Assembly (NCBI RefSeq): GCF_910596095.1
Contig: NC_056534.1
Location: forward strand, 10,790,490-10,854,489
Reading direction: 5' to 3'
DNA from: Thunnus maccoyii
Taxonomy: Eukaryota > Chordata > Actinopteri > Scombriformes > Scombridae
DNA: 64,000 nt
Position 1 is the first letter of the stretch. Each line of letters starts with the position of its first letter. Of the stretch, positions 3,688 to 59,000 are shown one piece after another. Both the position numbers and the translations under genes were made by a program. Under the pieces are notes generated by a model, which was not told where the DNA came from, made no database searches, and was given only the letters and a program-made list of their open reading frames with translations.

Positions 3688-14510
<10,823 letters not shown>

Positions 14511-33837: not shown

Positions 33838-36644
33838 CAAAGCATACAGTATGATAAATTTTGCGACTCACATGTTAATAACCAAATCTCTAAAGAGTCC
33901 ATCGTAAGTCTAAAACAACCATCAGATTCATACATAATCCACATTCATGTCTGTGAAATTTTGGGAGGAAACTGGAGAGCTTGTAGGACCCCCACAAGCA
34001 CATAGACAGGAAGCAACATTACACACATAAATATCAGTAATAATCCCCAGGATTGTTTTAGCTGTGAAGTGACAGTGCTGATTACTGAGACACCACACTC
34101 CAATCTTTTGAAATGAGGAATAAGAAAGATGGTAAAAGCTGTACACTAGTAAGAAAAAATAAAAAGGCAACGGACACCTTATCAAACCATGCCCTCATGC
34201 TTAATGACCAGAAAAACACTAACACAGCAGTATGATGAAATGCAGTGCAATACTTCTGCTATAAATACTAACATAACTAACCCTTAAAAGACTAAAGTGT
34301 AAAGTATGTTCTGAGGCTGTACTTCTGTGGCATTGCATTACCTTTAAAGGTTTTTTTAATTTCATTTCATTAATGGAGAAGCAAATCAATCAATCAAATT
34401 GCTTTAATTGTTCATATTGTCTGTGCTGGCCATAAAAAACTCAAATAAAGCAATTTCAATTTAAGTGATGAGGAACAAAATCCACAGTCAGTGGAAATTT
34501 TTTTGTAAAAATTACTTGTTAAGTTCAGCTGAAGTTAATGAGGTTTCAGTTTGAAGACAAATCAAGTGGGAATCTTCCAAAGTTGAAGTTTTTTTTAGTA
34601 TGAAATTTCCTCTTTGTGCTTCCATGAAGAGTGTTTTCTTGCTTTTTCAAGTCTGTCTTAAAACAATAGTCAGGTGCCCAATGAATGAAATGAAACAGGT
34701 TTTTCTTGCTGTAATCATTCATCCTTCTCATACTGACTGTTAGAAGATCCTTTCATATATTCATAATGCACTTACAATGTAAGTGGGACAGTCCTCATTT
34801 TGAGCAAAAAAGTATTTAAAAGTTTATCTGAAGATAATATGAGGCTTCAGTCATCTGAGTTAATCAAATAAAGTGGACATCTTTCACAGTCGGCCTTTTT
34901 ATTAAAAAACTGTCTCAACAGTGTTTCCCTGTTCAGCTGTGATGGAAGGATCATAACAAAAAGACGGAATTTGGTATTAAAAAGTCTTTGGACGGCTGAA
35001 ACTTCACATTAGTTTCAAATTGACTTTTAAATACATTTTTGCACAGGAGGGCTGTGGATTTCATTCCCCATCACTTACATTGAAAGTGCATTATGAAGGG
35101 ATCTCTTAATGATTACAGCAAGAAAAACACGTCGTTGTTCATTTGGGCTCCTGACTGTTGTTGACTGTTCATAACAGACTTGAATAACTGTGAACCTATT
35201 CGTAAATCAAAAAATGTTCTTGGAATGATTACAACTAGCGATTTCAGTGAACACATGAATCTGTGAATATTGTATAAAGACAGACTTGTCCCTTAAGTAA
35301 AGATGATCTATTCAGTAGTCTTGAAGCTCTGATGACCAGTCGTGTCACTTTTCATCTTCAGCCTTTGAAATAGAACCAGGGGCCTGTTTGAGGACCTGAG
35401 ACCAACTGTATGTCACACGGGGTTAAAGGTTTCTTATTAATTATGTTAACTTATATAACATCTTGAAATAAAACTCAAACAGGTAACTAGTGAAAAGAGT
35501 CCAGTATCTGAAATATAAACACTTCCAGACTGACGCCAGAATGAAGAGTTTTAGTGGGTTAAAGGAAATAAATGCATGAGTGACATGCTGATATGCTGAA
35601 ACATATGACTCACCAGTCACATGTGTGTAGGTGTGTTAAACTAGTTGAGAAGCTACCAGGAGCTGCTACAAAGGGAGAGTTCACTGTTGGTTTGTAAAGT
35701 TGCATAACATGATTGTACATCTGAAAACCAGGCCATGTGAAGGACAAACTTTAACACCACTCTGTCTTGTTATTATAATTTTAGTTGCTGTTGTTTTATT
35801 TCTATTTCTTTGTTATTTTGGTTTCTTTCCTCCTATATACCCAACTCCACTCAATTTTGTGTGATTGAATGTTTTTATTTTTTATCATTTTAATAGTTTA
35901 ATTGAAACTCATTGTATATGTTACCATATTGTGATGCACATGGCTACTTTAACTTGATTCAATCTTCATTCATGCAGCTTGGGTTATAGGTGGGAAACCT
36001 CATCTGTAACTGTATTTGTCCATTGCTATCATGATCTCTAATAAAAATAATTAAAAAAAAAACCCTTTAACACCATTACTGCAGTTGTTAATGAGAATTA
36101 CCAGACACAATTTAAAATATCCAACTGTTTTTACTCCTTTAAGACTCACAAATAAATGTCTCAATAATCTTTTATATTTTATTACAATATAAATGGTATC
36201 AGTGTAGCTTTTTGACATAAAAAACATGCTTGATCATGAACAATCTTTGTTTGACTGTTTAAGGGTGATGTATTCTTTAATAAATGCAAATAAAATCCAT
36301 TCATATAACCCTTTGAAACAGTCTAAGTGGGTCAACAGTAAACACACTGTGTGTTTGCTCACATAGAGTAAACACAATTAGGATCGATCAAAGATGAAAC
36401 GAATCATTGCCACATTTGTCCATTGCATAACCTGTCGGCAGAGACACAGCTGATTCCATAAATGGACAAAGTATCAGCTTTGAGGTAGAGTCATGGTATT
36501 GTCATTATGCTCCATGAGAAAATGCTTCACTGTAGCTTCACAAACACTTTCGCTGCTTTAAATACAAAACAGGAACAACTTGTCTTAATAGCAGAGTTCT
36601 CTAATGTTTTAGAGATTCTTCTCTAAAATCACTGTGAGCAGGTG
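33838..36644. other. CYP3-gpank1 spacer
   Basis: No gene is seen. It holds one miniature element (34660-35165) and otherwise AT-rich sequence, with both transcripts converging on it. Confidence 0.5.
34660..35165. mobile_element. miniature inverted-repeat element, family B copy 1
   Basis: The ends are inverted: GTTTTTCTTGCTGTAATCAT near 34698 against ATGATTACAGCAAGAAAAAC-like sequence near 35110, and AGTCAGGTGCCCAATGAA against TTCATTTGGGCTCCTGACT. A second inner inverted pair flanks CACTTACA. A diverged second copy is at 55830-56360. No coding capacity. Confidence 0.7.
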
Positions 36645-39153
36645 TCAAAGATAAAAAGAGGCACGGAAATCTCTTTCCCAGTTCTTATCCTTTTGTTCTT
36701 TTCTCCTAATTCCTTCCTTCCTCTTCCCTTTTCCTCTCGTCTCTTCTTTCTCCTTGGATGGTGGTTTCACTGCGTCACGATCCCTAGCTTGGAAGTGAGT
36801 AACTTTGGCTCTTTTCAGCTGTCCATACCCGAGGCCTTTCTGGTCTCTCTTCAGCACAGTTGCCACTGGTTGTTGAGGCCCCTCTCCCTCTGGACCCAGC
36901 CCTGTCCCTGGTCTCCAACCACAACGAACCATCATCTTGTAGCTGTTGGAGGAGGCGGGGAGACAGTAGTAGGGGGTCGGTGGTGGACGCCGCAGACTGA
37001 ACTGATGCAGAGTGGAGGAAAGATGTGATGACAGGCTGCCGCTGTACTCGCTACAACACACATCACACCACTGATTCTGGAGGGTACTGTGGACAAAACA
37101 AAAAGAGACGTTAGTGAGAGGACAAATAATAAAGGAACACATTGTTATTTGGGAAATAATGCACTTGTAATTGGAGTATTACCTGTCAGACATCGGTAAA
37201 TGTTGATAATTCAAACATCAGATGGCACCTCAACACTGCATTTTGCTTCACACTTATTTTACTTAACACAAAAATGTGTTTCGTTTACATTTAAAATCGG
37301 AAATTTTCATTTGACACACATTACTGCGCAAAGGTTTTAAGCACTTTAGATGTTTAGATTCTTATCATGTAATACCATCATGGAGGTGTGTGATCGGTCC
37401 CAAATTTATTCTGCAAATTGACAATGACCCCAAGCATACAGCCAGAGTCATAAAGAACTATCTTCAGCTACAACAAGAGCAAGATTTATAGTTCCCTTGG
37501 GGAAACTGATTCTCTGCATTTAACCCATCCTATACGCACACTAGGAGAAAGTGTTCCTAATATTTTGTCCACTACATTAACATATATGAGGGGGGCAAAA
37601 TATTAGGAACACTTTTCAGTATAATGCACTCTAGTACATCATCACCACCTACTACAACCTCAATAATACAACATAAAGTAGAATTATCACCTTTCTGATA
37701 ATGTCAACAAAAACTGAAAGTGTATAAGTTTCATAAAAGTAGAATTTATGGCAGAGCTGTTGTATTGAATTGAATTAGATTATACAGGTGTTCCTAATAA
37801 AGCGGCTGATGAATGTATGTCGACTGATAAGTAAAAAGAAAGTGGTTCCATCCTGTTCTGGTGGTTGTCAGTCAGAAATGAGGCTGTGGCATTTGCAAGA
37901 GTAAATACCAGAAACTGTAGCTGGTAGATTTAATCATGCAAACTCAGTATTTGCTACACAACTTCAGTATAGACACAACCACTTCAGAAACCAATGCAGC
38001 TCAGTCAGACTTGCTCCAACTAATCAACAAATATTTACATACATACATCTCGCCAAACTCCATAAAATATCCCATAACTATTAAAACAAAGTGATGGAAA
38101 CCTTATTGTCCATCTCTGTTGTCTAATTCTCACCTCAAATCAATTCAGAAACTAAATTTTTGGTGAATATTTTGTGAACTATGACATTTCCAGAGCATCC
38201 ATCAATGTTTTTTCCAGTTTATTCATTAGATGTGAGAAGGTGTTCAAATGAATATCTGGTTCAAGTATTGATTTAACTGTATACAAGTGCAAATGTGCTA
38301 ACCTGCTATCAGTTTGTCTCTCTGTCTGTGGACTTCTCCCATGGCTCTCCAACTCTTCCAACACTCCACTGTGACCCGCTGGGGAGGTAAAAGTAGCAGT
38401 AGATTAGTTTAGGTTCACTGCACACATGAACACAGAAATATTAATCAGAGTTATATAGTTATACCTTCCACTGCCAGATCTTTGGCATCCCTCCCCTGTG
38501 TGTCAACCACTCCCACCCAGGCTGCTCCGTGTTGCAGAAGCAGCCTCACAGCAGCTCTTTGTCCTGACCAGCATGCACACATCACAGCCGTCCAGAAAAA
38601 AGTATCCTAGAAGAGAAAACACAAGCACATAAAGCAAATACAAATAGTATTTCCCGGAAGTCACTTTGAATGAAATTACATCCAACAGAAAGTAACATAC
38701 CTGGAAGTTGATGTCGACCCCCTTTGAAAGGAGCTCTCTGAGGCCAGAGAGGTCCCCCTCATGGGCACAGCGCAGCAACCTGAGTCCCCGGAGCTCCACA
38801 CACCTTTCTGAGTTACTTGTCTCTCCTGCTGTCGTCTCTCCGCTTTGGTTACTTTCACCACTAACTCTTCTTTCCACCACAGAATCGGCTTGAACCCGCT
38901 GCATCTCTGCAGCCCTGACTCTCCTCCTCGCTCTTCTATTAGACTCTTTATTCCTCAGTCTAATCTGCTGATCTCTCCCATTATGTGTCTTGCCAACTAC
39001 ATCTGGTCCTTTATCATCTTTCATTAGATTTTCGTAGAACTTTCTAGCCTCCACCCCGCTGAGTATGCTGCTTGTTTGAGAGCTGGACTGTTCTCCTCCT
39101 TCGATCTTGAAAATATCCTGCTCTCTGGCAGGAGTAAAGCCCAAGGCAGTCAT
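36645..39153 (-). CDS. gpank1: G-patch and ankyrin repeat protein 1 homologue (4 coding exons, 370 aa)
   Basis: Coding exons (minus strand) are 39153-38701, 38606-38465, 38378-38303 and 37086-36645, with consistent phases and GT/AG borders (1113 nt). The order of parts matches mammalian GPANK1 (356 aa). It starts MTALGFTPAREQD, then a basic segment (about 70-95) and ankyrin-type repeats (about 125-200, with LRCAHEGDLSGLRELLSKGV and QGRDAKDLA). A Cys/His cluster (QWCDVCC...HLSSTLH, about 227-250) is followed by a G-patch (CGWRPGTGLGPEGEG...RDQKGLGYG, about 278-310). The lysine-rich end finishes in NWERDFRASFYL. G-patch proteins often bind RNA or helicases; the precise role of GPANK1 is little known. 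The in-frame GTG at 39168 is not the start. A 5'UTR exon probably ends at about 40133 and joins 39180. Confidence 0.93.
37321..37485. mobile_element. family A (Tc1-type) element fragment, copy 2
   Basis: It begins with a decayed end (TACTGCGCAAAGGTTTTAAG) and continues with GACAATGACCCCAAGCATAC, the reversed equivalent of the interior at 14546-15230. The other end is missing. It lies in gpank1 intron 3. Confidence 0.6.
37520..37812. mobile_element. family C dispersed element, copy 1
   Basis: Blocks GTAGAATTATCACCTTTCTG, AACAAAAACTGAAAGTGTAT and GTGTTCCTAATAAAGCGG are shared in the same order with 47960-48202. AGTGTTCCTAATATTTTG at the left is the inverse of similar sequence at 37596-37612. 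Non-coding. Confidence 0.65.
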
Positions 39154-39239: not shown

Positions 39240-39594
39240 TTATTTTTATAGCTACGATAATTAGTCAATTAGTTGCCAACGATTAAATTCAATTAACCGC
39301 CACCTATTTTGATAATGGTTTAATTGTTTTGAGTCATTTTTATGAGGAAAAAAAAAGTTCTCTGGTTCCAGCTTCTCAAATGTGAATATTTCCTGGTTTC
39401 TTTAGTCCTCTATGACAGTAAACTGAATGTCTTTTGGTCGGGACAAAACAAGACATTTGACGACATCAGCTTAACCTTTGGGAAAGAATGATCGACATTT
39501 TTCACAATTTTCTGAACCAAACAACTAGTCGATTAGTCGAGAAAGTGATCGACTGAATAATCAATAATGAAAATATTCGGTAGCTGCAGCCCTG
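39240..39594 (+). mobile_element. dispersed element (TTAGTTGYAGCCCTA family), copy 2
   Basis: It shares the GGACAAAACAAGACATTTG block and TCGATTAGTCGA-rich right end with the copy at 12165-12492. It lies in the presumed 5'UTR intron of gpank1. Confidence 0.6.
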
Positions 39595-40132
39595 CTTATT
39601 TTACATTAGTAACTCTATGGTGATGTTGCTATAGCAGCATACTGCCAGTCTGAAAGTCAGTGGTGTTTTTGTCTTACTGTTTACTTCCTGTCGAGGCTGG
39701 TATAAAATATTTAGCGTCATAAGACTGGTGACTAAAACTATATTTTTTAAAAAGTTTGTAAACTATGTAATATCTGGACGTACACACAAGCTGTGTTACA
39801 TTTTACGAGCCACAAATTATCACGTTTATACTCGTCTAACTCTCGTTAGCTTAGGTAGCTAACGTTAGCTTATTTTAAAGTGGAGTAAGGCGAGTGATTC
39901 TTTGTTTAGCTAACTCGAAACACGATTATTTCCTTAAATTTAATCTAATACAAATATATTAGGTCAATTCATTTGTCTGAATAAGACCACAGCAGCGGAA
40001 AGCCAGCATTTGTAGCACAGAGTTAGCTTTGGTTGTGTTAGCATTAGCTTCTACACTCACGAATGTTAGGTACCTTAAGCTGAACAAGCTAATGTGTTGG
40101 TTAGTTAAACTCGGTAATATTACAGTCATTAC

Positions 40133-40290
40133 CTACGTCTTTTTTAAACGCTACTCAGACGAAGACGTAAACATCAACTAGATGTGGGACTGAAGAACAT
40201 CTTCAGTAGTGTGAAGCTGCTTCAGGCTAATGTTATGACTGTATTTCTTCCTCTTTTGTAAACACGCCGTTGTTAAGGTGAATAACATCA
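40133..40290 (-). promoter_or_regulatory. candidate gpank1 first exon and promoter
   Basis: A minus-strand donor (GACGTAG|GTAATG, last exon base 40133) could join the acceptor before 39180, giving an untranslated first exon. Sequence around 40140-40290 is mildly CpG-enriched. No TATA box is seen. Support is splice signals only. Confidence 0.35.
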
Positions 40291-40339
40291 CCGCCACCTG
40301 TCGGACTGGATGTCACGACTCCTGCGTTATATTATAATC

Positions 40340-40480
40340 AGTGGTGAAGTAAGTTTTCACATCTTTTTTCTTTTCTCTTATGTAAAATTAGCAACACCAC
40401 ATTTTAAAAGTACTTCATCATAAGTTCAAGTCCTGTACTCAAAGTTTTACTTATGTAGAGTAGAAGTATGTAAGTATTAT
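40340..40480. repeat. AAGTAC-rich element fragment, copy 2
   Basis: GTGGTGAAGTAAG, AAAAGTACTTCATC and AAGTCCTGTACTCAAAG resemble a degraded piece of the element at 32515-32725. Confidence 0.4.
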
Positions 40481-40820
40481 GCAGAATCGCCCTTTATATT
40501 TTACACATATTATATTAAAATCTAACCTTTTTTCTAACATCTAGGACCACTATAAAGCTTAGTTTAGTTCTCACCCCCTTTTCCTTTATTATCATTATTA
40601 GTAGTAGTATTATTATTTCATCATGTAATTTTGCTAGCCATGTATTTTCTATATATTTCCCCTTTGTGTGTGTGTTTTACCGTTATTTTTGTTAGGCTGC
40701 GTCTTTGCATTTCTCTGTTTGTGTATCTGTATAACTGACTGATTATGTAATGATCTGTGGACCTAAATTGTTCTTGTTCTGTTTGTATTCTTTATTACAA
40801 AACCAAGAGTTTACAATATA

Positions 40821-40891
40821 CAGTAGGGTCAAAAAGTCTGAGACCTTTTTCCCAGAGTGGGAAACTGGTCTTAGACTTCTGGACCCTACTC
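40821..40891. repeat. short perfect-type hairpin element
   Basis: Two arms of about 23 bp, GTAGGGTCAAAAAGTCTGAG... and its inverse ending in CTTCTGGACCCTAC, are separated by about 20 bp. Each arm looks like the terminal repeat of a Tc1-type transposon, so this may be a collapsed pair of ends. A CT/TA simple tract follows. Confidence 0.6.
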
Positions 40892-40934
40892 TCTCTCTCT
40901 CTATATATATACATACACATCAAGTATCCATTTG

Positions 40935-41193
40935 TCATCTTTTTAAGCAAATATACTAAAAATGCTCATTTCAGCTTCTCAAATGTGATGATTTAATCCT
41001 TTTCTTTGTGAATTTATTCTAGTAAAATGATTATTTTGGGGTTTTGGACTGTAGGTCGGACAAAATAAGACATTTAAAGACGTCACCTTTGACTCTCGGA
41101 GATTACAACAGGCATTATTCTTTATTTTCTGACATTATATAGACAAATTGATAATAATTGAAAATAATCATTAGTTGCAGCCCTACATTCATT
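40935..41193 (+). mobile_element. dispersed element (TTAGTTGYAGCCCTA family), copy 3
   Basis: It carries GGACAAAATAAGACATTT and ends ATCATTAGTTGCAGCCCTAC, as in the other three copies. Confidence 0.6.
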
Positions 41194-43165
41194 TTGATGT
41201 ATGTATACCCGATTGAGTAACTGTCTGTTCATATTGAGGGAATACAGGAACAGACAGTGGGGACTCATGTATTGAGCATGTGTCATACATTGTTCATAAC
41301 CTCCTTACATGTAGTAATAGAGTGAATAATAGTTTTATTTTTATGGCACTTTTCTAAACACAGTTAAATGCTTGGTTACAGAGAAGCCTAAACAAAAAGT
41401 TATGAAAAAGTGAAAAGAAACATAATATCATACCAACACATACATAGTAGGAAGGACAACAAAAATACTGAAACATGATCTCTGACATATTTTAAAGTAA
41501 TTTGCGTCCATTTGAGTGATCATGATTGTATCACGTTTGGCTTCAGACTGGGGTGAGGGGGTGCGTGTCCCTGACCCACCTACGAGGGTCAAATGTCAAA
41601 AAGAGCCATTCACATGCCAGTAACAAGTGTGAGGATTTCTTGGTAAGACAAGTGTTTGAATGACAAAAGTGCTGTGTGTGAAGGATGTGTCAAACACAGG
41701 GGTGAGGACTAAACCCTCATGCAAGGCTTTTGTATTAAGGGGCGACGTAGTGATTTCTAAAAGTCCGGGTGTCAAGCTTGCGGGGTGCAGAGAACAAGAG
41801 CAGAGACAAACTGTTTGGACAGCAACAGTGAACGCTTAATATCCCACAGAAAAGTCATTTTGACTCTTGTACAGTGGTTTTGCATGTTTTTCTCCCCCCG
41901 TTGACCACAAAGTAAAAGTTTAGTAATAAAAAGCACTGAGTTATATATTCAGAGAATGTCTTAAGGCGCCTTTACACTGTGCGATTTTAAACTGTCTGAG
42001 ATAAAAGTTGAGAATGGTGAGAGAAACGTAGTGAAACGTTTTGGTCGTCAATCCTCAATTTCAGTCAAAATTCTGTCAGAAATTTAAGCTTAAATTTTCA
42101 CAAGGCGACTGCTGCTTCGACTCATGTCTACAAACCAACCAATCAGAATATGACATGAAATGACAGAATACGCTGGCCGGCATTTGTGCAATTTTTAAAA
42201 AAAAATAAAGTTTAGGTGGAAAACACACTTGTTCTCCTTAATGGAACACAAAAACCAAAACAACTGGAGGTGAAATGAAAAAAGAAGTTTGTGCGCTACG
42301 TTTCACCACGCATTCTGCACACCTTATATTGATGTCGTAAAATCTGACAGGATGTGACCGAGATTTTATCACAGGCATCTTGCACAATGTGACACGCAAT
42401 AAACTTTCACAATCGTTGTCGTCGTACAGTCTAAAGGCATAATCCGAATATAAATACCAAAAATCAAAGCGCAGGGCTGGAACCTGTTATCACATTAATA
42501 TTGATTGACGGCTGCAATCACTACACAACTAAATCTAAATCTAATTCTTCTGATGCTATAATTAGTTGTTTTTTTAAGCAATGTTTGTAAATAGCAATAA
42601 GACAAACCTATAGTTAAAAGTATGACTTGTTTACAGACACACAGGATGGCAATTTACCATCTGTAACTCTAACCTTCAGTCACTAATTGATCAGCTAAAT
42701 GGTAACGCCTGTACAATCTATAAAAAACAGCCCTGCAATAAATGCTATCTTTATGAAACTTAAGATACCCCGTGGAGTTTTTGATCACTAGTAACACTAC
42801 GGAGCAAAGCTTTAATGAGTGGCTCACAATTTTGTTTGTATTTTGGACTCAAAGGCAACAAAGGCAGGGAAGAGGACGGCTGGCAACCTGGATGTAAACA
42901 ATGTAAACGATGCAAACAATTCGACAGAATATTGAAAAAAAAAAAAAACTGGCTTTGCAAATGTTTTATGTGTAAGGAAACACATTCAACATATTTGTTA
43001 AGGATACACAATGTGTTTTTGGTGAGAAGCAGTAAAAGAAAACTCCACAGAGCAGCTTTATGAGACCGTGTCAGAGAGGTGCTGATGGAACCCAGTGGTC
43101 GTTTTTACGGCCATACTTTGTTGTGATGTTTTGATTTTCTAGTAAACAGAGTATTTATATTATTC
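41194..43165. other. gpank1-zinc finger gene spacer
   Basis: No gene is seen. The only structured part is a possible element at about 41960-42445, whose ends (GGCGCCTTTACACTGTGCGA and a reversed GTCGTACAGTCTAAAGGC) are imperfect inverted repeats. Confidence 0.45.
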
Positions 43166-43171
43166 TTTATT
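43166..43171 (-). terminator. polyadenylation signal for the zinc-finger gene
   Basis: TTTATT on the plus strand gives AATAAA about 240 bases after the stop codon of the zinc-finger gene. It is the nearest downstream canonical signal. Confidence 0.5.
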
Positions 43172-43407
43172 TAACTTCTTCTCTTACTAAATAATGGAAT
43201 GGAAATCAAATAATGAAAAATAATGGTCAAAGCAGCCGAAATCTACCTAAAGTTATTACTTGATTTCTCAAATAAAATGAATCAGAATTCATTTGGAACC
43301 TGAATCAACTCTAAATGATTCCCAACCCGACAAACATGCAAAACCACCGATACGATCCTTTCAGAAGCAACACAAAAAAAAAAGCTTCACTGTTGTTACT
43401 ACAATAT

Positions 43408-46400
43408 CTAACTGTGGTATTTATTGATGTGTCTGTTTCTGTCTCCGGTCTGTGTAAATGTCTGTCCGCAGTGAGGGCAAGAGTACGGCCTCTCCCCCGT
43501 GTGTATCCTCATGTGAACGTTCAGCTTATCTTTGCTAATAAAGCGTTTGTTGCAGCAGGTGCACGAGTACGGTTTATCCCCCGTGTGGTAACGCTGGTGC
43601 ATCTTCAGCTCCGTCATGCGACCGTAAGTCCTGCCGCACTCGGGACACTCGTAGCTGGGCCGCACCTCCATGTGCTGCCTGCTGTGAAGCCGCAACCCAC
43701 TGGACGACCTGAAGCTCTTACTGCACTGCGAACACTTGAAGGGTTTCTCTCCGGTGTGGATGTGGCTGTGTAACTTGAGGCTGGCGGCGGAGGGGAACCC
43801 GTTACCGCAGAGAGAGCAGAGGTGAGGTCTCTCCCCCGTGTGGATGCTCAGGTGCTTTTCCATCTTGTTCTTGTTCAGGAAAGTCTTGCCGCAGATGGGG
43901 CAGCTCATTGGCTGCTCTCCCTCGTGTAAGCTCATGTGCTCCGTCAGCTCCACAAGCGTGGAGAAGGCGTAATCGCAGCGAGTGCAGGAGTACGGCCTCT
44001 CCTTCTTGAATTTCCTGTGTTTGAGGCAGTGTTGCTCCAGGTGTTCCTTCTCTTCAAAGGTTTCAATACAACAGGAGCACTGATACGGTCTTTCTTCGGT
44101 GTGAGTTCGCAGGTGGTACTTCAAAGCTGTTAATTGTAGAAAGACGCTGTCACAGTGTGGACATCTGGATTCCCGTCTGTCGTGGACCATTATGTGCCTC
44201 TTGTAGTGAGAGAGCTTGATGAAGCGTTTGCGGCACAACGAGCAGTAATACTGTTCGTCTTGATGCCCTTGCTCGTGCTTCTTCAGTGCATACTCCACCT
44301 TAAACTTCTTCCCGCAGGTGCTGCACTCGTAAGACTTCTCATGAACCACCATGTGCGTCTCCAGTTCTTCTACACTGCTGAAGGTTTGGTTACATTTCGG
44401 ACAAGTCCCGTTGTTTTCCTTCACATGAATCTCCAGGTGTTTGTTAAGATCTTCTGGGAAGGCGTAGCTCTTCTGACACTTGGGGCAATTGTAACACTCA
44501 CCATTAGTTGCTTTGCGATGGGTCACTATGTGCCGTTTCAAATGATACATTCGGCCAAATACTTTGCCGCAGTCGTTGCAGATGAGGCACCGAGGGCTGG
44601 ACTGGACCTTCTTGTGTGATTTGAGATGACTCACGAACGCAGCCTTCTCCTTGAATTGTTTATCACAAGCGGGGCATGACAGGCCTTCAGCCACGTGAGT
44701 CTTCTTGTGTGCTTTCAGTTCCGGCCAGCTACCTAAACTTTTCCCACATTTAGAACAGATATACTGGCCCAAGCCGTGCTGGTTCCTCAGGTGTCGGGTC
44801 ATGTGGTAGGACTGGCTGAAGGTCATAGTACAGACTGGGCAGCTGAACGGTTTCTCCTTTGTGTGCGTCCTCATGTGTCTGGCGAGCTTGTTTGGCCCTC
44901 TGAAGCGCCTGTCCACGCAGATGGGACAGAAATGGCCCTTTGTTTTGGTCTTGGAGGCGACTTTTTGTTTCTTGCTGCCGTCATCTTGAGATTTAGCTTC
45001 ATCAGAGTCTTTATCTTCCAACTTAACTTTGACTGCAGATCCTTCATTCTGAGCGTCGTCATTACCAGAGCCTGCATCAGCCTGCTCCTCCTCCTCCTCA
45101 TCATCATCATCATCACCACCACCACCACTCTCATGATTATCTTTGTTACCTGACTTCATTATTTCTTGTTTTTTCTCTCCATCACAATGTTGGTAACCCT
45201 CTGTCTGGGTGGACTGGTCTTTGCTGTGTGAAATGATATGACTTAAAAACGCACCATTGTTCAGGAATTTCTCATGACAGTCGGGACATGAGAGAACTTT
45301 CGACGTGTGCGTCTTCTTGTGACTCTGCAGCTCTGCGAAGCTTCCTAAACTCTTCCCACACGTTGAGCAGACGTGCTGGCCCGCGCCGTGCTGGTTCCTC
45401 AGGTGTCGGGTCATGTGGTAGGACTGGCTGAAGGTCATGGTACAGACTGGGCAGCTGAATGGTTTCTCCTTTGTGTGCGTCCTCATGTGTCTGGCGAGCT
45501 TGTTTGCGTCTCTGAAGCGTTTGTCTACACAGATGGGACAGAAAGGACCTTTTTGTTTAGTCTGAGGAAGGGAGAAGTCTTCATCTTCGTCATCATCGCC
45601 ATCATCACTGGCTTTGTCGAAGCCTTCCTCCTCCATCATATGTGATGATGATGAGGCGCCATTATCACCGTCTCCTTTCTCACTTGCTTTACCACGAGGC
45701 AGATTACCTTCATCACCACTCTTATAATCCTCATTATCACTACGATATAGCTTATCATTGCTGGAACAGTAGTTATCTTTGTATCTAGATGATCTTCTCG
45801 GGGTTTTAGTCTCACGTGGTTTCGTTTTCGCCCTTTTCTCCCCGCGCCGAGGCCTTCCTCTTTTTGCCACTCTTTGAACAGGAAGGTCTAAATCGTCTCC
45901 AATGTCCACACTGACTTCGTGAATATCAAACAATTCAGGATGATTTAAGGCAGATTCCACCTCTTTACCAATAATCAACGCCGTGGCCAAGGTCAGAGTT
46001 TCCTTCTCTAACAAAAGCCTCTCTTTCAGTTGCGGGCAGTTTGTTTTTTCAATTAGCTGAGTGAGGATAAGTGTGTCTTGTACGTCTCTGTAGTTGCAGG
46101 ATCTCAACAGCTCCTCTAACGCAGAGACAAACTGCTCTACAGTCTCTCCGGGCATCTGAGCCCTTTGATGGAATTTAAGGCGGTACATCTGAGAGGTATG
46201 ATCAGAGGTGAAGTACAGCGTCAGCGCTGAGATCGCTGCTGCGTAAGTGGTTTCACCCTGGATCAGTGCTGTGAATATGCGCTGGCCCTCTTGGCCAAGG
46301 CAGTTTTGTAAGAGCACACACTTACTGGAGTCAACCAGCTCGTTCTCACCGAGAGCTTCAACGTAGTGTTCAAAAGCTTTGAGCCACTTGTGCCAAAATA

Positions 46401-46521
46401 TGGCTGGTTCACCAGGGACAGATAAGAAAGGTGGGGGTGGAGACAGGATGATCAGTAGAGGCTCTGGCAGCAAATCCTGTTCCGTCACCTCCTCATCCAC
46501 TTCTACAGTCACTTCACCCAT
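43408..46521 (-). CDS. Gag-domain C2H2 zinc-finger protein, single coding exon, 1037 aa
   Basis: I do not recognise a named orthologue. From the ATG at 46521 (MGEVTVEVDEE; the GTG at 46551 is not credible) the frame is open for 1037 residues. Residues about 33-190 resemble the capsid region of Ty3/gypsy-type Gag (FWHKWLKAFEHYV, LGQEGQRIF, QRAQMPGETVEQFVSALEEL, LIEKTNCPQLKERLLLE). Residues 221-226 (RGRPRR) form an AT-hook-like motif, then an acidic serine-rich linker. Twenty-two C2H2 fingers follow in two duplicated four-finger blocks and a longer array. The last five fingers have canonical TGE/DKP-type linkers. The domain layout implies a nuclear DNA-binding regulator with a self-associating N-terminus, comparable to SCAN zinc-finger proteins. 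A 5'UTR acceptor lies at 46669. Confidence 0.9.
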   Translation of the reverse strand: MGEVTVEVDEEVTEQDLLPEPLLIILSPPPPFLSVPGEPAIFWHKWLKAFEHYVEALGENELVDSSKCVLLQNCLGQEGQRIFTALIQGETTYAAAISALTLYFTSDHTSQMYRLKFHQRAQMPGETVEQFVSALEELLRSCNYRDVQDTLILTQLIEKTNCPQLKERLLLEKETLTLATALIIGKEVESALNHPELFDIHEVSVDIGDDLDLPVQRVAKRGRPRRGEKRAKTKPRETKTPRRSSRYKDNYCSSNDKLYRSDNEDYKSGDEGNLPRGKASEKGDGDNGASSSSHMMEEEGFDKASDDGDDDEDEDFSLPQTKQKGPFCPICVDKRFRDANKLARHMRTHTKEKPFSCPVCTMTFSQSYHMTRHLRNQHGAGQHVCSTCGKSLGSFAELQSHKKTHTSKVLSCPDCHEKFLNNGAFLSHIISHSKDQSTQTEGYQHCDGEKKQEIMKSGNKDNHESGGGGDDDDDEEEEEQADAGSGNDDAQNEGSAVKVKLEDKDSDEAKSQDDGSKKQKVASKTKTKGHFCPICVDRRFRGPNKLARHMRTHTKEKPFSCPVCTMTFSQSYHMTRHLRNQHGLGQYICSKCGKSLGSWPELKAHKKTHVAEGLSCPACDKQFKEKAAFVSHLKSHKKVQSSPRCLICNDCGKVFGRMYHLKRHIVTHRKATNGECYNCPKCQKSYAFPEDLNKHLEIHVKENNGTCPKCNQTFSSVEELETHMVVHEKSYECSTCGKKFKVEYALKKHEQGHQDEQYYCSLCRKRFIKLSHYKRHIMVHDRRESRCPHCDSVFLQLTALKYHLRTHTEERPYQCSCCIETFEEKEHLEQHCLKHRKFKKERPYSCTRCDYAFSTLVELTEHMSLHEGEQPMSCPICGKTFLNKNKMEKHLSIHTGERPHLCSLCGNGFPSAASLKLHSHIHTGEKPFKCSQCSKSFRSSSGLRLHSRQHMEVRPSYECPECGRTYGRMTELKMHQRYHTGDKPYSCTCCNKRFISKDKLNVHMRIHTGERPYSCPHCGQTFTQTGDRNRHINKYHS
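44640..45555 (-). repeat. internal tandem duplication of a four-finger block
   Basis: Fingers 1-4 (about 45555-45240) and 5-8 (about 44950-44640) are paralogous. Within them, 45378-45517 and 44766-44905 are nearly identical at the DNA level (a handful of differences over about 140 bp), while sequence on both sides is much more diverged. Confidence 0.85.
45951..46425 (-). other. Gag-like (capsid) domain of the zinc-finger gene
   Basis: This is the part of the coding exon for residues about 33-190. It has the order of conserved blocks seen in Ty3/gypsy-type Gag: an aromatic W-x3-F segment, LLQNCLGQEGQRIF, a central basic QRAQMPGE motif and the QL-E-T-P-x-RL-LE block. No protease, polymerase or long terminal repeats are seen beside it, so this is a domesticated fragment inside a host gene rather than an element copy. 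The domain is open throughout. Confidence 0.75.
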
Positions 46522-46669
46522 TGTTGGTTTCTGGGTGTGTGTTTTTTTCACCGGAGGCGAGGGATAATTTTATTTCTCCTTCTTTGAGTCGCTGAGTTAA
46601 GACATCACCCTCTTCAGTCTGTGTTCAGGCTCTCGATGCTTCATCCCACTCAGGTCAGTCTTGGAGCAC
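46522..46669 (-). other. 5'UTR part of the zinc-finger coding exon
   Basis: A good minus-strand acceptor (TTTTCTCTTTTACAG, ending at 46670) starts an exon that runs into the ATG at 46521. An upstream first exon is expected. Confidence 0.55.
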
Positions 46670-47959
46670 TGTAAAAGAGAAAAAACATGAGTTAGATCCA
46701 GGCTCTGACAAGACGTGTTACAGTGTATGAAATTATGCGCACCTAAATTATGTGATGTGGCAATAGGTGAAATTTAAAAAACGTATTTACATGCCAGACA
46801 CAGAGGAAACTGTCTTGACAAAGTGAATCAGAAGCCACAAATGAACACTGGCTGACAGACACTTAACCAGATATTTGCTTAAATAAGGATTTAAATGATT
46901 TACTCAAACACTTCCATAATGTCGGGGGACTTATAGGAAACAGATTGAAAAAATAAAAACGGTACAAACTGATACAGCAGAGATATCCTGATTTTCATCC
47001 CTTTTATTAGTGATACTTCAAAAACGTTGAAACCTCAAAAGCCTCTTATTAGACCCCTCCTGTCTGTAACAAAGACTTCATAGAAAAAAAATAAAGTCCA
47101 AACCTTGATTTTCTCAATTAAATTTCATCCTGAGTCACAGAGGACATTATACATCTGTTGTATTTACCCCATGATACTACATGAAATGCGGACTGCCCCT
47201 TTAACAAGTCATCACAGCCCCCAGGTATTTTCTACAGGAATGTCACATAATATCAAGGAGTGTTTCTATTACTTTGCCTACTGCTCCATTTAATTTGGTT
47301 TAGAGAAAAATGTGGGAATAACCCTTTAAGAAAAGCATTTCCATGGTTTCCCTCATTTGGATTACTGTAACTGAAACAATCATTAATTACTAGTAATTGC
47401 TGGAATTGAGCCGCCACTGATGTGATCAGTTTCATCTGTTCTCTTCCTGCTATGATGAGTCAAAAGATCCATGAATCTGACAAAAAAGAAACATGTCTGA
47501 TGCTTCGATGCTAATCAGCCTGTTCAGATTCAGGTTTGCAAGATGCTTTCAGAAAGTAACAAGAAAAGTACAAGATAGACAGATTTTTTTTTAAAAAAAG
47601 GACAAAAAGAAAAACAGGTGGCGTTTATCTGTCACACCTGTCACTCACATCCAAAATATTAAGAACATGTTGCTCCTGAGTTCACTGTCAAGTGTCTTTA
47701 GTGGAAAAAACTCTAGTAGTTTTGCCACAGTTTGACTTGCATTTGCAGACTAATGAGAAACATTTGGGGGAAAAAAGATGCAGTTAAGCTCTTGATGATG
47801 TGATTCCCATGAAATTCAACTTCGCTCCTTTTGTTTTAGTTTTTTTAAATTATAATTCAATCTTCCAATTACTCTCACAACTAACTGTTTGGTCTATAAA
47901 GATATAAGAAAATTACCACCACAATGTCTTAAAGTCAGGACTGTGACATCCTTGATTTT

Positions 47960-48202
47960 GCTTCTAAAAGTGTTCCTAATGTATGTCAATGAGGAGGATA
48001 AAATATTAACGCACTCCAGTACACCACTACCACCACCCACTATGACCTCATTAATAAACATAAAGTAGAATTATCACCTTTCTGACAACGTCAACAAAAA
48101 CTGAAAGTGTATAAGCTTTGTAAAAGTAGAATTTATGGCAGAGCTGTTGTATTGGATTTCATCAGATTGTACAAGTGTACCTAATGAAGTGGCCGATGAG
48201 TG
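47960..48202. mobile_element. family C dispersed element, copy 2
   Basis: It shares GTAGAATTATCACCTTTCTG, AACAAAAACTGAAAGTGTAT and GAATTTATGGCAGAGCTG in order with 37520-37812. Confidence 0.65.
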
Positions 48203-48492
48203 TACAGCGCCTGTCAAAACATGATATGAGACAGACACCATTATGATTGTATTATCAATAAACAAAGCTCCTCTCTCTCTCAAGCATGCATCGTACATTT
48301 TACAGCTTCACAACTATTTTTGAAAAAGTCTTTTCCAGTTTCCATGTGTGAGCTGACACTGACAGCAGGGACGAAAAATAAACAAGATGGATTTGTTAAA
48401 GAGTGGGTGATCAGTACTAAATTCCTTGAAGCTAAACTGCTGATTTTGGGGGAGAAATACTTAACAAATACCACTAGACATGTTTTAAGAGA

Positions 48493-48759
48493 TTAACTGT
48501 GGTGACTGAGGCTCTGTTGGGGGGGACCGGGGGCCTCCAGAGGGGCTCCTGGTTGAACAGATGTTACAGATGTTTCAGCGGGTGCTGAGCTGTTGTTTCT
48601 AGCCTGAAATAAAAAAAATACCATAAACTGAAATATTATTATTAATGACAACAAACTGCACACACGGTCTGGATTAATGTGTCAACGTTGTTTTTTTTTT
48701 TACCAGCTTGAATATGTGTTTAAAAGAGACCCGAGCAGAGTCACACCGATAGTGACAGG
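48493..48759 (-). other. possible two-exon coding fragment, unidentified
   Basis: A strong minus-strand acceptor (pyrimidine-rich, exon start 48603) opens a 36-codon frame rich in S, P, A and Q that ends in SLSHHS and a stop at 48493. A preceding 56-nt segment (48759-48704) with acceptor and donor would join in frame (CHYRCDSARVSFKHIFKL). I recognise no protein. It may be a chance frame or an untranslated exon of the zinc-finger gene. Confidence 0.2.
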
Positions 48760-48853
48760 CTGTGTGTGGAGACGACACACACCTACACAAGACAGAAGGA
48801 GTCTCGAAATCACTAATTAGCAATAATTGAGGAGGAGGAGATGAAAAACTCAC

Positions 48854-49140
48854 CAAACCAAACTGGGTCACAAGTCACGACGTGTGCACGCAGACAGGCA
48901 GCGGAGTATCGGCCGCTTCGGATCCGAGCTGCGGCAGCGTGAGAGCGGCTGTTTGTATCTGAAGCTGCTGCAGCGCTACTGATTCATTGTCTGGATAATA
49001 GTGTTGCAGGTATTTTACAAAAACACTTGGCTGAAAAGCAAATCATAAAGTAGAAAACATATCCGCCATGCTGACATCCTTTCTTCCGGACATCACAACA
49101 GCTCCCCCCGGGGGAGTGTCTCCCCGCCCACAGCGCCCCC
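48854..49140 (-). promoter_or_regulatory. candidate CpG-rich promoter and first exon of the zinc-finger gene
   Basis: GC- and CpG-rich sequence (for example GCGGAGTATCGGCCGCTTCG near 48900) contrasts with the AT-rich surroundings. A minus-strand donor GGTTTG|GTGAGT ends a possible untranslated exon at 48854 that could join the acceptor at 46669. No other gene start nearby fits it better. Confidence 0.4.
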
Positions 49141-49164
49141 CTGTGGAGGGAGGCTGCAGGAATG

Positions 49165-49330
49165 ACTGAGCAGTGGCAGAAAGTACTGTATTTAGGTACA
49201 CATTTAAGGTACTTATACTTTACTTGAGTACTTCTATTTGATGCTATTTTATACTTCCTCTCCACTACATTTCAGAGGGAAATATTGTACTTTCTACTCT
49301 AGCTTTAGTTACTTTTCAGATGAAGATTTG
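49165..49330. mobile_element. AAGTAC-rich dispersed element, copy 3
   Basis: TTTACTTGAGTACTTCTATT and CTCCACTACATTTCAGAGGG are diagnostic of the same family as 32515-32725. Confidence 0.6.
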
Positions 49331-49944
49331 ACACAATGGAGGGAGGAGGGTGAAACTCATCGTCTAGTGTTTTACTATCACACCAGCTTTAAATAATCAA
49401 ATATGATATATATAATCTCATTAAAATGGATTTGATTACAATTGCACTGATGAATTAAATTACTGTTCATGATTGCTTAAATAATTTGATTACCATATGA
49501 GTGCCAGTTATCAGAGACTGAAGTCTGTTTACATGAATTTCGGAGTGAGACGTGCTGTTTTAACGCCACTTGAGTATTCACAAATGTCAGCAACAGCATT
49601 TTCTTAATCAGATACTAATTATTTGTATAATCTACTGCATATTTTAAAGGACTGGTTCACCCAAATTACAAAAAGCATCCTCATAGTACCACTACTGATG
49701 TCAGGCCATACAGATAGTTTAGATTTTATTTGCTTATTTCCTAGATTTTGCAGTAACTGTCTCTGGGATTTTTACCTCCACCCCAGTACAGTGGAGATTA
49801 ATGGAATTAATCATCAGCATCAAAAAATTAACAAAAATCCTCTTTCCAAAATCAGTGCCAGGATAAGTCATTGAGCTAACCTTGAACATCTTTATTAAAA
49901 CTACTATCCACCACAGATACTCCCCTTGAAAACTGATCACAGCA

Positions 49945-53035: not shown

Positions 53036-56000
53036 TCAAACGAATGAGGAGAATCCCGTCACAGGGGTGCGTGACCCTGGCGGGTTGGTGTTGGGGTTGA
53101 CATGCGTGTGCGCAGGCTGCCCTGTGGGCATGTACGCGCCGCCTGTGCTGTGCTGGGTGACCACGGTCTGGTAGTAGGGCTCCGTGTCTGCAGTGGCGCA
53201 CTCCTCGTAGGCGAAAGGAGCGCTGATCCCTTTAAGGCCTTTGGGCTGCCGCTTCCAGGAGTTATAGTAGGTGGGGTCGCTCATGTAGTGGTTGACAAAG
53301 GAATGCTTGGGCTGCTCGTCCTCATAGTCGCTGTCTGTTAACTGGATACAAACACAAACACACAGGAGTTAGTAGATTTATTAGAGAGACAAACACAGAC
53401 ACTAGCAGGAAGGAATTTTACTGTTAAAATGAAGGGCTCATACAAAGCCAATCATCTGTTGTCAATAAATATTTGTGGCTAGCCATTTCAGTGTTTTTTC
53501 AAAAAATTTTTTTTGTTATTTGTGCTTTTATTGGACAACAGACAGACAGGAAATGATGAGTAATTGGACCGAAGATGCTGAGATTACATGATACACTTTA
53601 CAGATGACACTGTTGGCACATCTGATCCATTATCAGCAGCCCTTTGTTTCAGTTCAGCATGTTAAATTCACAATTGAGGCAGACGGAGCTATTTAGTGTG
53701 ATTTCTCTTTATTTTTCACCTTTTCTTTTCATCTTCCACAAGAAAGACTCGGCTCAAACAACATCAGTAGAGTACAAAGCACGTACAATTGCTACTTGCA
53801 ATTTATGAGAAAATGCCAAGATTGTTTCAGTGGCATGAAAATAGTGGGCTGGTTTGACCTTCTTTTTGTCATCGATTTTGTATTCACATTTGTACAAAAC
53901 AGTATAAAGATGAGGTTACAAGTTCATTAAGCAGAGGAGTGAGAAAACAAAGGAGTCCTCAAAAAATCATACATTAAATTTAGATGTTGGCTATCAGCTA
54001 GTGCGTTTTTAAAGTATTTTTGCCTTTATGTAATAGAAGACAGCAGGGGGCTGACAGGAAATGGGGAATGACATGAAACAAAGGTCCGTGGCCGGACTTG
54101 AACCTGGTGATGTTGCAATTAGATGGTCATCGTGTTAAAACCTTGAGGTCAGTGATTACCAACCAGGGGGTACTTCTGCGGTTTCCACAGGGTATGTGGA
54201 AAGCTGAACTAATTAAATGAGCTCAACTGAAAAATATACCACATATCTGTGTTAAGGATGAAAATAAACAGCCAGATAGGATTACAAATTGGTGGGATGC
54301 TGATCTTTACAATAACCAGTAAGCTGCCCATCAACCAGTTGTCAAACACTACGTGTTGTAAACAGTGTGTAAAAAGTAATTAACAAGCAGAAAGAGAAGT
54401 TATAGCTAAAATTACAGTTTTAAAAGAATTAGCTAAAAGTAAATGAAACAGTTAGTTAAATGTAATAAATGTTTTAAATGTCCAGTTTTTTGCCACTCCA
54501 AGAGTTTTTAGCATGAATTCCAACTTGAACAAAACAATCTTAACACTGACAATTCACATATATGAACAATAGGTACAAATGTAACAATATTCACTTTGAT
54601 ATAATTAATAGTGTTTAATATCATCCAGTTTATAACTCATTCCTAAGAACGTATGTGGAACATGATGGGTGCTGCTGATGAACGGGTACTTGAGCTCATC
54701 TATTAGCGCTGTGGGGTACATCTAACAGAAAAGGTTGGTGTTTAAGTGCAATTTTGTACTGCACTTTTTTAGAAACACGTTTTTTTCCTGGCCAATAAAG
54801 CTTTTGAATTTGAGAGAGAGACAGTGAAGAGAGAGACGAACAGAGAGAGAGAGATACCTCTGACTCAGAGACCTCAGTGGGCTTCTCAGTGAGAGTGGTG
54901 CTCTCGGTGAGTATGGCTCCGTTATAGTTGTTACAGATGTCCTCGTCAGAGTAGTGAAGACCACCTGGGCTGGGCCTGGGAGGAGACCTGGATACACACA
55001 CACAAACAATAAATATCTGAGATATTTAAAAAAAAAAAAAAAAAGCCAGGAATGTATGTGTGTGCTTGTGTTTGACTGCACACCTGGTCCCGTTCTTTTT
55101 CAGGAAGGAGTTCTTGCTGTTGAGCGTTCTGCTGTTGAGCTCCAGAGCGGTGAAACCCCCGTTGTCCAGAGTTACAGACTCCTCCGCTGTGGTGACGTGC
55201 TTCCCTGGAGGAAGAGGAGAAAAAGGAGTTTCATTTTTCAATTTTTTTTTGCTCATTTTTTAATTGGTTCAGACAAAATCCCCAAATCCCCAAAAACAAA
55301 AAAAGTTCAGTCACTCGTCTAAAATTTTTTTCTGCAGTGGTTCCACTTGCTTTACACAGAATTTATGTGAGCTTCATTTATTGTGTATTCAGAGAATAAG
55401 AAGCAAATAAAACTAGGAATCATAATATGGCACTCAGGAAATAACCACAGAGAATATCTTCATAATTTGTCCACTGAAAACCAGAACAAATTAGCAATAA
55501 AGGAAACAATGTCATGTTTTAAATTGGGATGAATGTGATTGCTGTCTGGAACAAACCAAAGCGTTCTGAATAATTTAAGGTCACCTAAACAAAAATTACA
55601 TTTCCTGTTGCCCACAATTCTTCACTCTAGTATATGCTTGTATGGTCACCCTGAATGCACTTGATCTCTCCCCTCCTACAGCACCTCCCTCACTGCGTTT
55701 GATCGCTCCACTGCCCAGAGGTTGTGCCATGGTTTCCATGGCAACTCAGATTAACAGCTGTCCTGATGTAACCTGTGCTTGTCAGGGCAAACTTTGTCTT
55801 GCAGATGTTGGCGTGCATGCACAAGCACACAGGGGGGCCATAAGAACACTGAAAGAGGTTTTCCTCGCTGTAATCGTTACTCCTCTTCATACTGGCTGTT
55901 AAAAGATCCACTTCAGATGTGCTTTCAATGTAAGTAAGTTTATCTGAAGCTTATATGAGGCTTCAGTAGTCTGAGTTAGTCATATCAAGAGGATATTTGC

Positions 56001-59000
56001 TACATTTACAATCTTTTTAGCATCAAATTCCCAATTTGTGTTTCCTCAGACAGTGTTTCCCTGTTGAGCTGCAGTGGAAGTATAGTAACAAAAAGAGGAA
56101 CTTTGGCACTAAAAAGACTGTAACATTGAAAGATTAACCTCATGATTTGACTGATTTGGACAACTGAGCTTCATATTAGCTTCAAATAAACTTTTAAATA
56201 CATTTTTTGCACAGAAGAAGGCTTGAGGATTGTGGCCCCAATCACTTAGATTGTAAGTGCATTATGAAGGGATCTTCTAATGATCAGTATGAACAGGAGG
56301 AATCATCATGGCAAGAAAAACCTATTTCAATGTTCATTTGGACTCCAGACTGTTGTGAACCCGCCCTTTCACCCTACAACCAAAGTCTTAACCCTCAAAC
56401 AACCCTTTGAAAGTCGGTCCCAAAGTGACGGTTGGCAAAAATACTCTCACTCCCAAGGTATAAAACTAAAAATGGTCCTCACAAAGACAGACACCCACAT
56501 CCACAAACACACAAAGTGAAAGTAAAAGCACTGCTGCACCCACAACTGAGAACATTACAGTAAACCTGACAGGAGAAGAAACTCTGATGAAAACAGGAAG
56601 AAAACATGAAAGACTAAAAGCTTCAGAAGAGAAACTGGGCAACACATCAGACAAACTAACAATGTTTTGTCATAATGTGGATGGAGTTTGTCCTTCAACC
56701 CGTGTTGGTGAGCATCCTTCCCACTGACACATCCTTCAGTAAGACTCTGATCCCTCCAGCTCCCGGCTGCTGAGGCTTTGTGATTGACCCTGTGGAGGTG
56801 GTGCGAGCTCAAACATAACAGAGCGACCCAGATCAGAGTATGAAACACTGAGAAGTGAGTCTGCATTTTTTTCCTGAGGGAACTCTCAATGGAGGAGTGA
56901 TTCTAATGCACAGTTTAATCTGACCAGTAAGCTATTATGAGGCCTCCTATAGCTGATATATGGCTGTATTAAGTGTTGAGAATTTAACTTATGCAGGCTT
57001 GTCTAAAAATAATTATGTTATAATGCAGCCTTAATAACTTCTAGCAGTGACTCTGCTTCCACTTAGATGACACTGTAGATTTACCAGTTTAGCTTTACAT
57101 AAATTATAATTTTAGGCTATTAAAATAGCTAGCACTAGCTAAATTACTTATTGTTTATGAGCTTTATAATTACAAGCTTAACAAGTAAATTTTGTTTAAT
57201 TATAATTTCAGCATCAACCTAAAGCCATATTCAAAATCCCATGAAAATTATAGTTGGAGATAATTTCTTCCTGAGATGCTTCAGGGCACTGTTCACCCTG
57301 AATCATCCTGTTGAAGGAACAAGGTTGACCTTGTTTTCCTCCGCGTACACCCCTTAGAGGTGGCAGTCGTGTTGTAGGAACAAGACTGCTTGAGGCAGTG
57401 TTGGCACAGTACAAGTGCATGTCTCAACTTTTCAGATCATTAAAGGTGAAGTACATTACAATAAATCAGTAGAAAGTACATGTAGTGTGCCTGCTGAGGG
57501 AGGGAATTTCACACTCAGGTGCAAAACTCCCCCCAAAAACCCCCAACAAACCATTGTTTAATCTCCAAGTTGCCACACAGCTGAATAAATCTTCCCACTG
57601 GGGCCATCCTATTAAGCATTACATTAGCGCCTGAACGTCAGAGCCACAGACCTGTGCCGCAGGCCTTGTACTTGGTGCTGTGTCCGTGCAGCAGCAGTGT
57701 GAAGACCAGGACCAGAATGAGGATGAGTCCCACCAGAGCCATGACCAGCAGGAACCACCACTCCTCATAGAACGGACGCTCAGACAGTGCTGCAGACAGA
57801 GAGAGGAGCGAACAGGAGAGGGAGGAAGGGACACATATCAGGGAGATATTATCAACATGTTTTTGTCAAGTCCACTATGACTGCAACTAACGATTATTTT
57901 CATTATCGATTAATCTGCTGATTACTTTCTCAATAAACGCTTTGTCTATAAAATGTCAGAAAATAGAGAAATGTTCCTTATAACTCCTTAGAGCCCATGA
58001 TGATGTCTTCAAATCTCTTATTTTGTCTGATCAACAGTCAAAAAATCAAAAGATTTTCAGTTTATCATCATGTATGTCACAAAAACCTTCAAGTCCTCAC
58101 ATCTGAGAAGCTGCAACCAGCAAATGTTTGGCGTTTTTGTTTGATAAATGACTAAAATGATTATCTAAATTCCACCATGATCATATAGTTTGTCCCACAG
58201 GACCAAAGACACTCCTCGCAATTTGTGGATGATATTTTTTGAGGACTGACTCTAACTGAGACCCTGTTGTGCTATTGTCATTAATGTCACCCAGCTGATT
58301 TTTCAAATAGACTGAAACAAACACCTCAGATCATTTGAAATGTTTCTTCCCTCAGGTGAGTTTATTGGGTGAAAGAGAGGAAGCTGAATAAATGTCTGGG
58401 TTAGATTTTTCATAAATGATTAGATTTATTTGGTGACATTCTGTCGGTAGGAAACAACAATGCAGATATGCTTTCCGTATTGCCTTGTTTTTGGACAATG
58501 ACAGTTGTAGCTGCGTAATTCCACCTCTAGATGGCAGCAGACACAAAAGCACATGACAGCGATCACAGTAACTTTCCACTTCACATCCAACCAACAAGAA
58601 ATCCAGTCAAACCCCAGTTAGACGAGCTGGATCACCCTGGGTATGTTCATTAGCCTGATCGTTACCGGTGTGTGTGTGTGTGTGTGTGTTTGTGTGCATC
58701 TTTACCAGCGAGAGCAGCAGAGGGTGTACTCGGCTGTCCGTAACCATAGCGATTAACAGCAATGACTCTGAACTCGTAGCTGATCCCTGACCTCAGACGC
58801 TCCAGCGGCACTGAAACAGACCTGCTGCTGGGAGGAAGCAGTCTGATGAAGGAATCCCACACGCCTTCATCTGCAGAGAGAGAGGGTTGAGTCAGAGTTT
58901 GATGGACGGGCAGACAAAGACAAGACAGAGGGTGATCCATTTGAGAATTATTCCCTTTCATAATTCTTATTAAAGAAAATCATAAATTGTCAAATTAAAT

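Follow-up and report, generated by a model that had tools for sequence, protein, structure and literature searches.

A fish zinc-finger gene with an N-terminal domain likely derived from a retroelement Gag capsid

The SCAN/ESCAN zinc-finger genes of tetrapods join a domain derived from a Gag capsid to an array of C2H2 zinc fingers (PMC3406341, PMC4592553), and KRAB zinc-finger genes are reported to have acquired SCAN at around the amniote root (PMC4592553). In fish, the FiNZ and KRAB-like zinc-finger genes also have an N-terminal domain and are tied to the control of retroelements (PMC10547256, PMC11603059). Here we describe a gene on the minus strand at positions 43408-46521 of a 64,000-nucleotide (nt) stretch of Thunnus maccoyii (contig NC_056534.1, positions 10,790,490 to 10,854,489; the whole stretch is called the window). 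We consider it rather likely to be a zinc-finger gene of the host in which the N-terminus was supplied by the capsid (CA) region of a Gag of the Ty3/gypsy type and is fused, in the same exon, to the C2H2 array. The Gag origin of the N-terminal domain is itself likely, and it was probably independent of that of SCAN, that is, a separate domestication.

The gene resembles the SCAN/ESCAN genes in coupling a Gag-capsid-derived domain with a C2H2 array, but it differs from them in having no listed SCAN profile match, in its one coding exon and in belonging to a fish genome. Its domain has the length of a capsid, as in ESCAN, whereas SCAN is shorter. Of the two features by which the SCAN zinc-finger family is recognised, the C-terminal C2H2 array is present (22 fingers) and a PF02023 match is not listed at E up to 10. 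With the domesticated metaviral capsid genes PNMA, ARC and RTL/SIRH it shares the capsid-like profile (a PNMA match at residues ~44-160 of the isolated domain) and the lack of recognised long terminal repeats (LTRs); six frames of its near flanks (39500-43407 and 46522-49500) gave no pol domain, and the direct repeats that span it do not abut it. It is unlike them in that its capsid-like domain is fused to 22 C2H2 fingers, and the accessible part of a survey of metaviral capsids describes no such fusion, although this survey had no profile for SCAN, and SCAN proteins escaped its CA profiles (PMC11011659). The likeness to the FiNZ and KRAB-like genes lies in the possession of an N-terminal domain and is one of description only; gag, SCAN and PNMA go unmentioned in the main text of those papers (PMC10547256, PMC11603059). 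A fish host gene composed of Gag and C2H2 fingers was not found among the titles and abstract openings listed, a scope that mostly leaves out subscription papers, so that one may be in print.

The features of the gene, all on the minus strand, are the following:

46669..46670, minus: AG of a putative splice acceptor in the 5' untranslated region (5'UTR), its usage being a prediction from sequence only
46597..46644, minus: upstream open reading frame of 15 codons inside the putative 5'UTR, from sequence
43408..46521, minus: whole coding exon of 1037 codons, with the Gag-capsid-like domain and 22 C2H2 zinc fingers (reading frame, Pfam and pattern)
45934..46416, minus: Gag-capsid-like domain, residues 36-196, with the profile match at ~44-160 (Pfam PF14893 PNMA and helices of poor models)
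45787..45867, minus: basic stretch, residues 219-245, N-terminal to the fingers, with a core KRGRP that we take to be AT-hook-like (sequence)
45226..45540, minus: zinc fingers 1-4, residues 328-432, first copy of a duplicated block (pattern and comparison of the duplicates)
44929..45225, minus: acidic linker, residues 433-531 (sequence)
44614..44928, minus: zinc fingers 5-8, residues 532-636, second copy of the block (pattern and comparison of the duplicates)
43414..44613, minus: zinc fingers 9-22 (pattern)
43166..43171, minus: AATAAA polyadenylation signal, 236 nt 3' of the stop codon (sequence)

PNMA is a family of proteins derived from Gag capsids. In the profile search that had been proposed for the N-terminus, PNMA (PF14893) was the top Pfam match of the isolated domain, with 26.5 bits (cut-off 25, E 5.1e-6) over residues ~44-160, and it was not matched by any of the ten controls, nine of them shuffled sequences and one a reversed sequence. 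Two of the ten controls gave five chance matches between them (E 0.058-0.26, the best being 0.058). Since chance reaches these values, the PNMA score exceeds it, while the weaker matches to DUF1759 (E 0.043) and Retrotrans_gag (E 0.1) do not; DHHC (E 0.003) and Dark_CARD (E 0.12) were also matched weakly, and an identity with DHHC was rejected, its 17-19 bits falling well short of the 28.7 cut-off. SCAN (PF02023) was absent among the Pfam matches at E up to 10, a negative limited by the HMMER filters, which discard most matches above E ~0.1. The capsid-like N-terminus of the original prediction is thus supported by a score over the cut-off in the isolated domain and by its absence from the controls. 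The Gag blocks had been placed across the first 190 residues, and here the profile bears out the part at ~44-160, whereas the extension to residue ~196 comes only from helices predicted in poor models and from likeness to the usual pattern of a Gag, and no match was obtained for the ~40 residues at the start of the protein.

Either half of the domain, searched alone, gave no Gag match in Pfam. NCBIfam yielded no family for the domain, and PHROGs returned a single match at E 0.13. A QxxxExxxxF motif occurs at residues 122-131; neither a CCHC knuckle nor a D[ST]G motif was found in the protein. Relatives of the domain were looked for in three collections of prokaryote and virus sequence, where few are expected: viral_contigs gave three pattern stretches and genome_contigs 43, of which none was confirmed, and the phages yielded no match. 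Two models of the domain were predicted, both poor (predicted local distance difference test, pLDDT, 38 and 51). On the two-lobed fold of a capsid they disagree: in the structure search with the first of them, Arc, PNMA2, Ty3 and other capsids rank at the top, and with the second they do not. None of the best 50 of 83 matches in a viral structure library, where many entries are nameless, was named as Gag. SCAN structures were not among the matches listed for either model, which does not exclude a SCAN fold.

Pfam recognised a long C2H2 array in the protein, and the claimed 22 fingers were borne out by a pattern that detects complete fingers only: 20 follow CX2CX12HX3-4[HC] and two, at residues 328 and 532, have CX13 spacing. 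They form two groups, four fingers at residues 328-432 and 18 at 532-1036, with the acidic linker between them. Since the 21 inter-finger gaps measure 5-11 residues each, apart from the linker of 99, no decayed finger is concealed within either array. The blocks at residues 328-432 and 532-636 are an internal duplication with 81% nucleotide identity over 300 nt. The ratio of nonsynonymous to synonymous substitution rates (dN/dS) between the copies, which bears on the fingers and not on the capsid-like domain, is 0.27 by NG86 (bootstrap 0.14-0.48; 1 or more in 0 of 300 replicates) and 0.40 by YN00; with a value of about 0.27 the fingers look constrained. The DNA-contact residues, taken by position, are almost identical in fingers 1-2 and 5-6. 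We also observed a tract of 123 nt (44770-44892 and 45382-45504, codons 340-380 and 544-584) that is 96.7% identical between the blocks, the neighbouring stretches being 68-78% identical, which suggests local gene conversion or strong local constraint.

The open single coding exon of 1037 codons was confirmed on the minus strand, running from 46521 to 43408 with a single terminal stop; the chance of so many stop-free codons from base composition alone is ~1e-23 to 1e-30. The ATG is preceded by in-frame stops at distances of 51 and 78 nt. As to the claim of a working gene, the good context of the ATG (CCAACAATGG), the acceptor-like site (TTTTTTCTCTTTTACAG) and the polyadenylation signal are present as sequence, but splicing and expression are putative.

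In the near flanks, six-frame searches against Pfam revealed neither pol nor any other domain of a retroelement at E of 0.1 or less; on their plus strand there were two matches (E 0.036 and 0.066), both to non-retroelement families and far under the cut-off. Comparison of the window with itself (E up to 1e-8) gave nine repeat pairs that span the gene, four of them direct, and no LTR-like pair abutting it. The direct pairs were rejected as LTRs, none of them adjoining the gene, and are read as probable interspersed repeats. The strongest pairs 37622-37817 with 48007-48204 (86%), with a third fragment at 42726-42762, and the second pairs 34820-35113 with 55936-56284 (69%), 21 kb apart and overlapping an inverted match; the third is a 73% match and the fourth is 32 nt long.

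Several observations count against a capsid origin. The PNMA score exceeds the cut-off by only 1.5 bits, and falls under it in the whole protein (22.1 bits against 25), the PDB sequence search matched no capsid, the structure search with the second model did not favour capsids, and DHHC was weakly matched. All of these would suit a helical domain of the ordinary kind associated with zinc fingers, not derived from Gag, whose weak PNMA match arose by chance or by convergence. We hold this to be quite improbable, given E 5e-6 over the whole library against 0.058 for the best control, the failure of every control to match PNMA, and a ranking rich in capsids for the first model. The identity of the donor is a different matter, since the name of the PNMA profile cannot by itself decide which Gag it was, Gmr1/ESCAN included. 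Among the Gmr elements of frogs more than 50% score as SCAN and ~16% as PNMA, and ~30% of Cer elements score as PNMA (PMC4131045), and gag loci of zebrafish retroelements themselves score as SCAN or PNMA (PMC8672886).

On these published scores, the union of a Gag with zinc fingers in fish could plausibly have come from material already known. The domain could accordingly be an ESCAN/Gmr1-type capsid, which would make the gene a remote or parallel branch of the SCAN zinc-finger lineage instead of a separate domestication; we regard this as possible although unlikely. Against it, SCAN is usually encoded on a separate exon, whereas domain and fingers share one here, and SCAN was unlisted at E up to 10. 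It is very improbable indeed that the frame belongs to a retroelement which acquired its zinc fingers by capture, or that it is a functionless chimera of recent date. A single coding exon would agree with it, and gag loci that carry Znf domains have been reported among zebrafish retroelements (PMC8672886); nevertheless the near flanks hold no pol domain in six frames, no LTR-like pair adjoins the gene, the protein lacks both a CCHC knuckle and a D[ST]G motif, and the 22 fingers are complete, with low dN/dS between blocks.

Profile searches of the neighbouring frames assigned an FHA domain to 13831-14304 and a G-patch domain to 36648-37142; they also gave a weak match to ankyrin, and exons coding for fn3 at about 60.2-60.6 kb. 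These domains agree with the neighbours, which we take to be gpank1, sdk1 and a foxk1-like gene. One copy of the strongest direct pair sits inside the gpank1-like gene, between its G-patch part and its ankyrin part; the copy at 37622-37817 has ATTAGG.../...CCTAAT-like ends and is perhaps a small DNA transposon. Elsewhere in the window there are an inverted pair (18786-19035 and 19274-19518, ~250 nt, 83% identical, ~240 nt apart) and a perfect AAGAG tandem array of 18 copies (24826-24916).

Returning to a host gene with an N-terminus from a Gag capsid, we suggest, with confidence evenly divided, that ray-finned fish built their own Gag-capsid and zinc-finger regulator without recourse to SCAN. 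The donor would have been a gypsy Gag outside Gmr1, its domain would have kept the length of a capsid and stayed in the exon of the fingers, and the protein may assemble through this domain when on DNA. The fusion itself probably took place within ray-finned fish, apart from SCAN. By analogy with SCAN domains, the capsid-like domain would drive self-association of the protein, so that several finger arrays would act in concert. DNA binding would fall to the fingers and to the basic AT-hook-like stretch, with the near-identical contact residues of fingers 1-2 and 5-6 giving a preference for sites that are repeated or paired. The output would probably be transcriptional control, quite possibly of a repressive kind and aimed at relatives of the donor retroelement.

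If the gene is independent of SCAN, the same architecture evolved at least two times from retroelement capsids in vertebrates. Such a repeated origin, if true, would point to a real advantage of coupling a self-assembling capsid domain to a finger array, and the gene would then offer a fish system in which this advantage can be tested.
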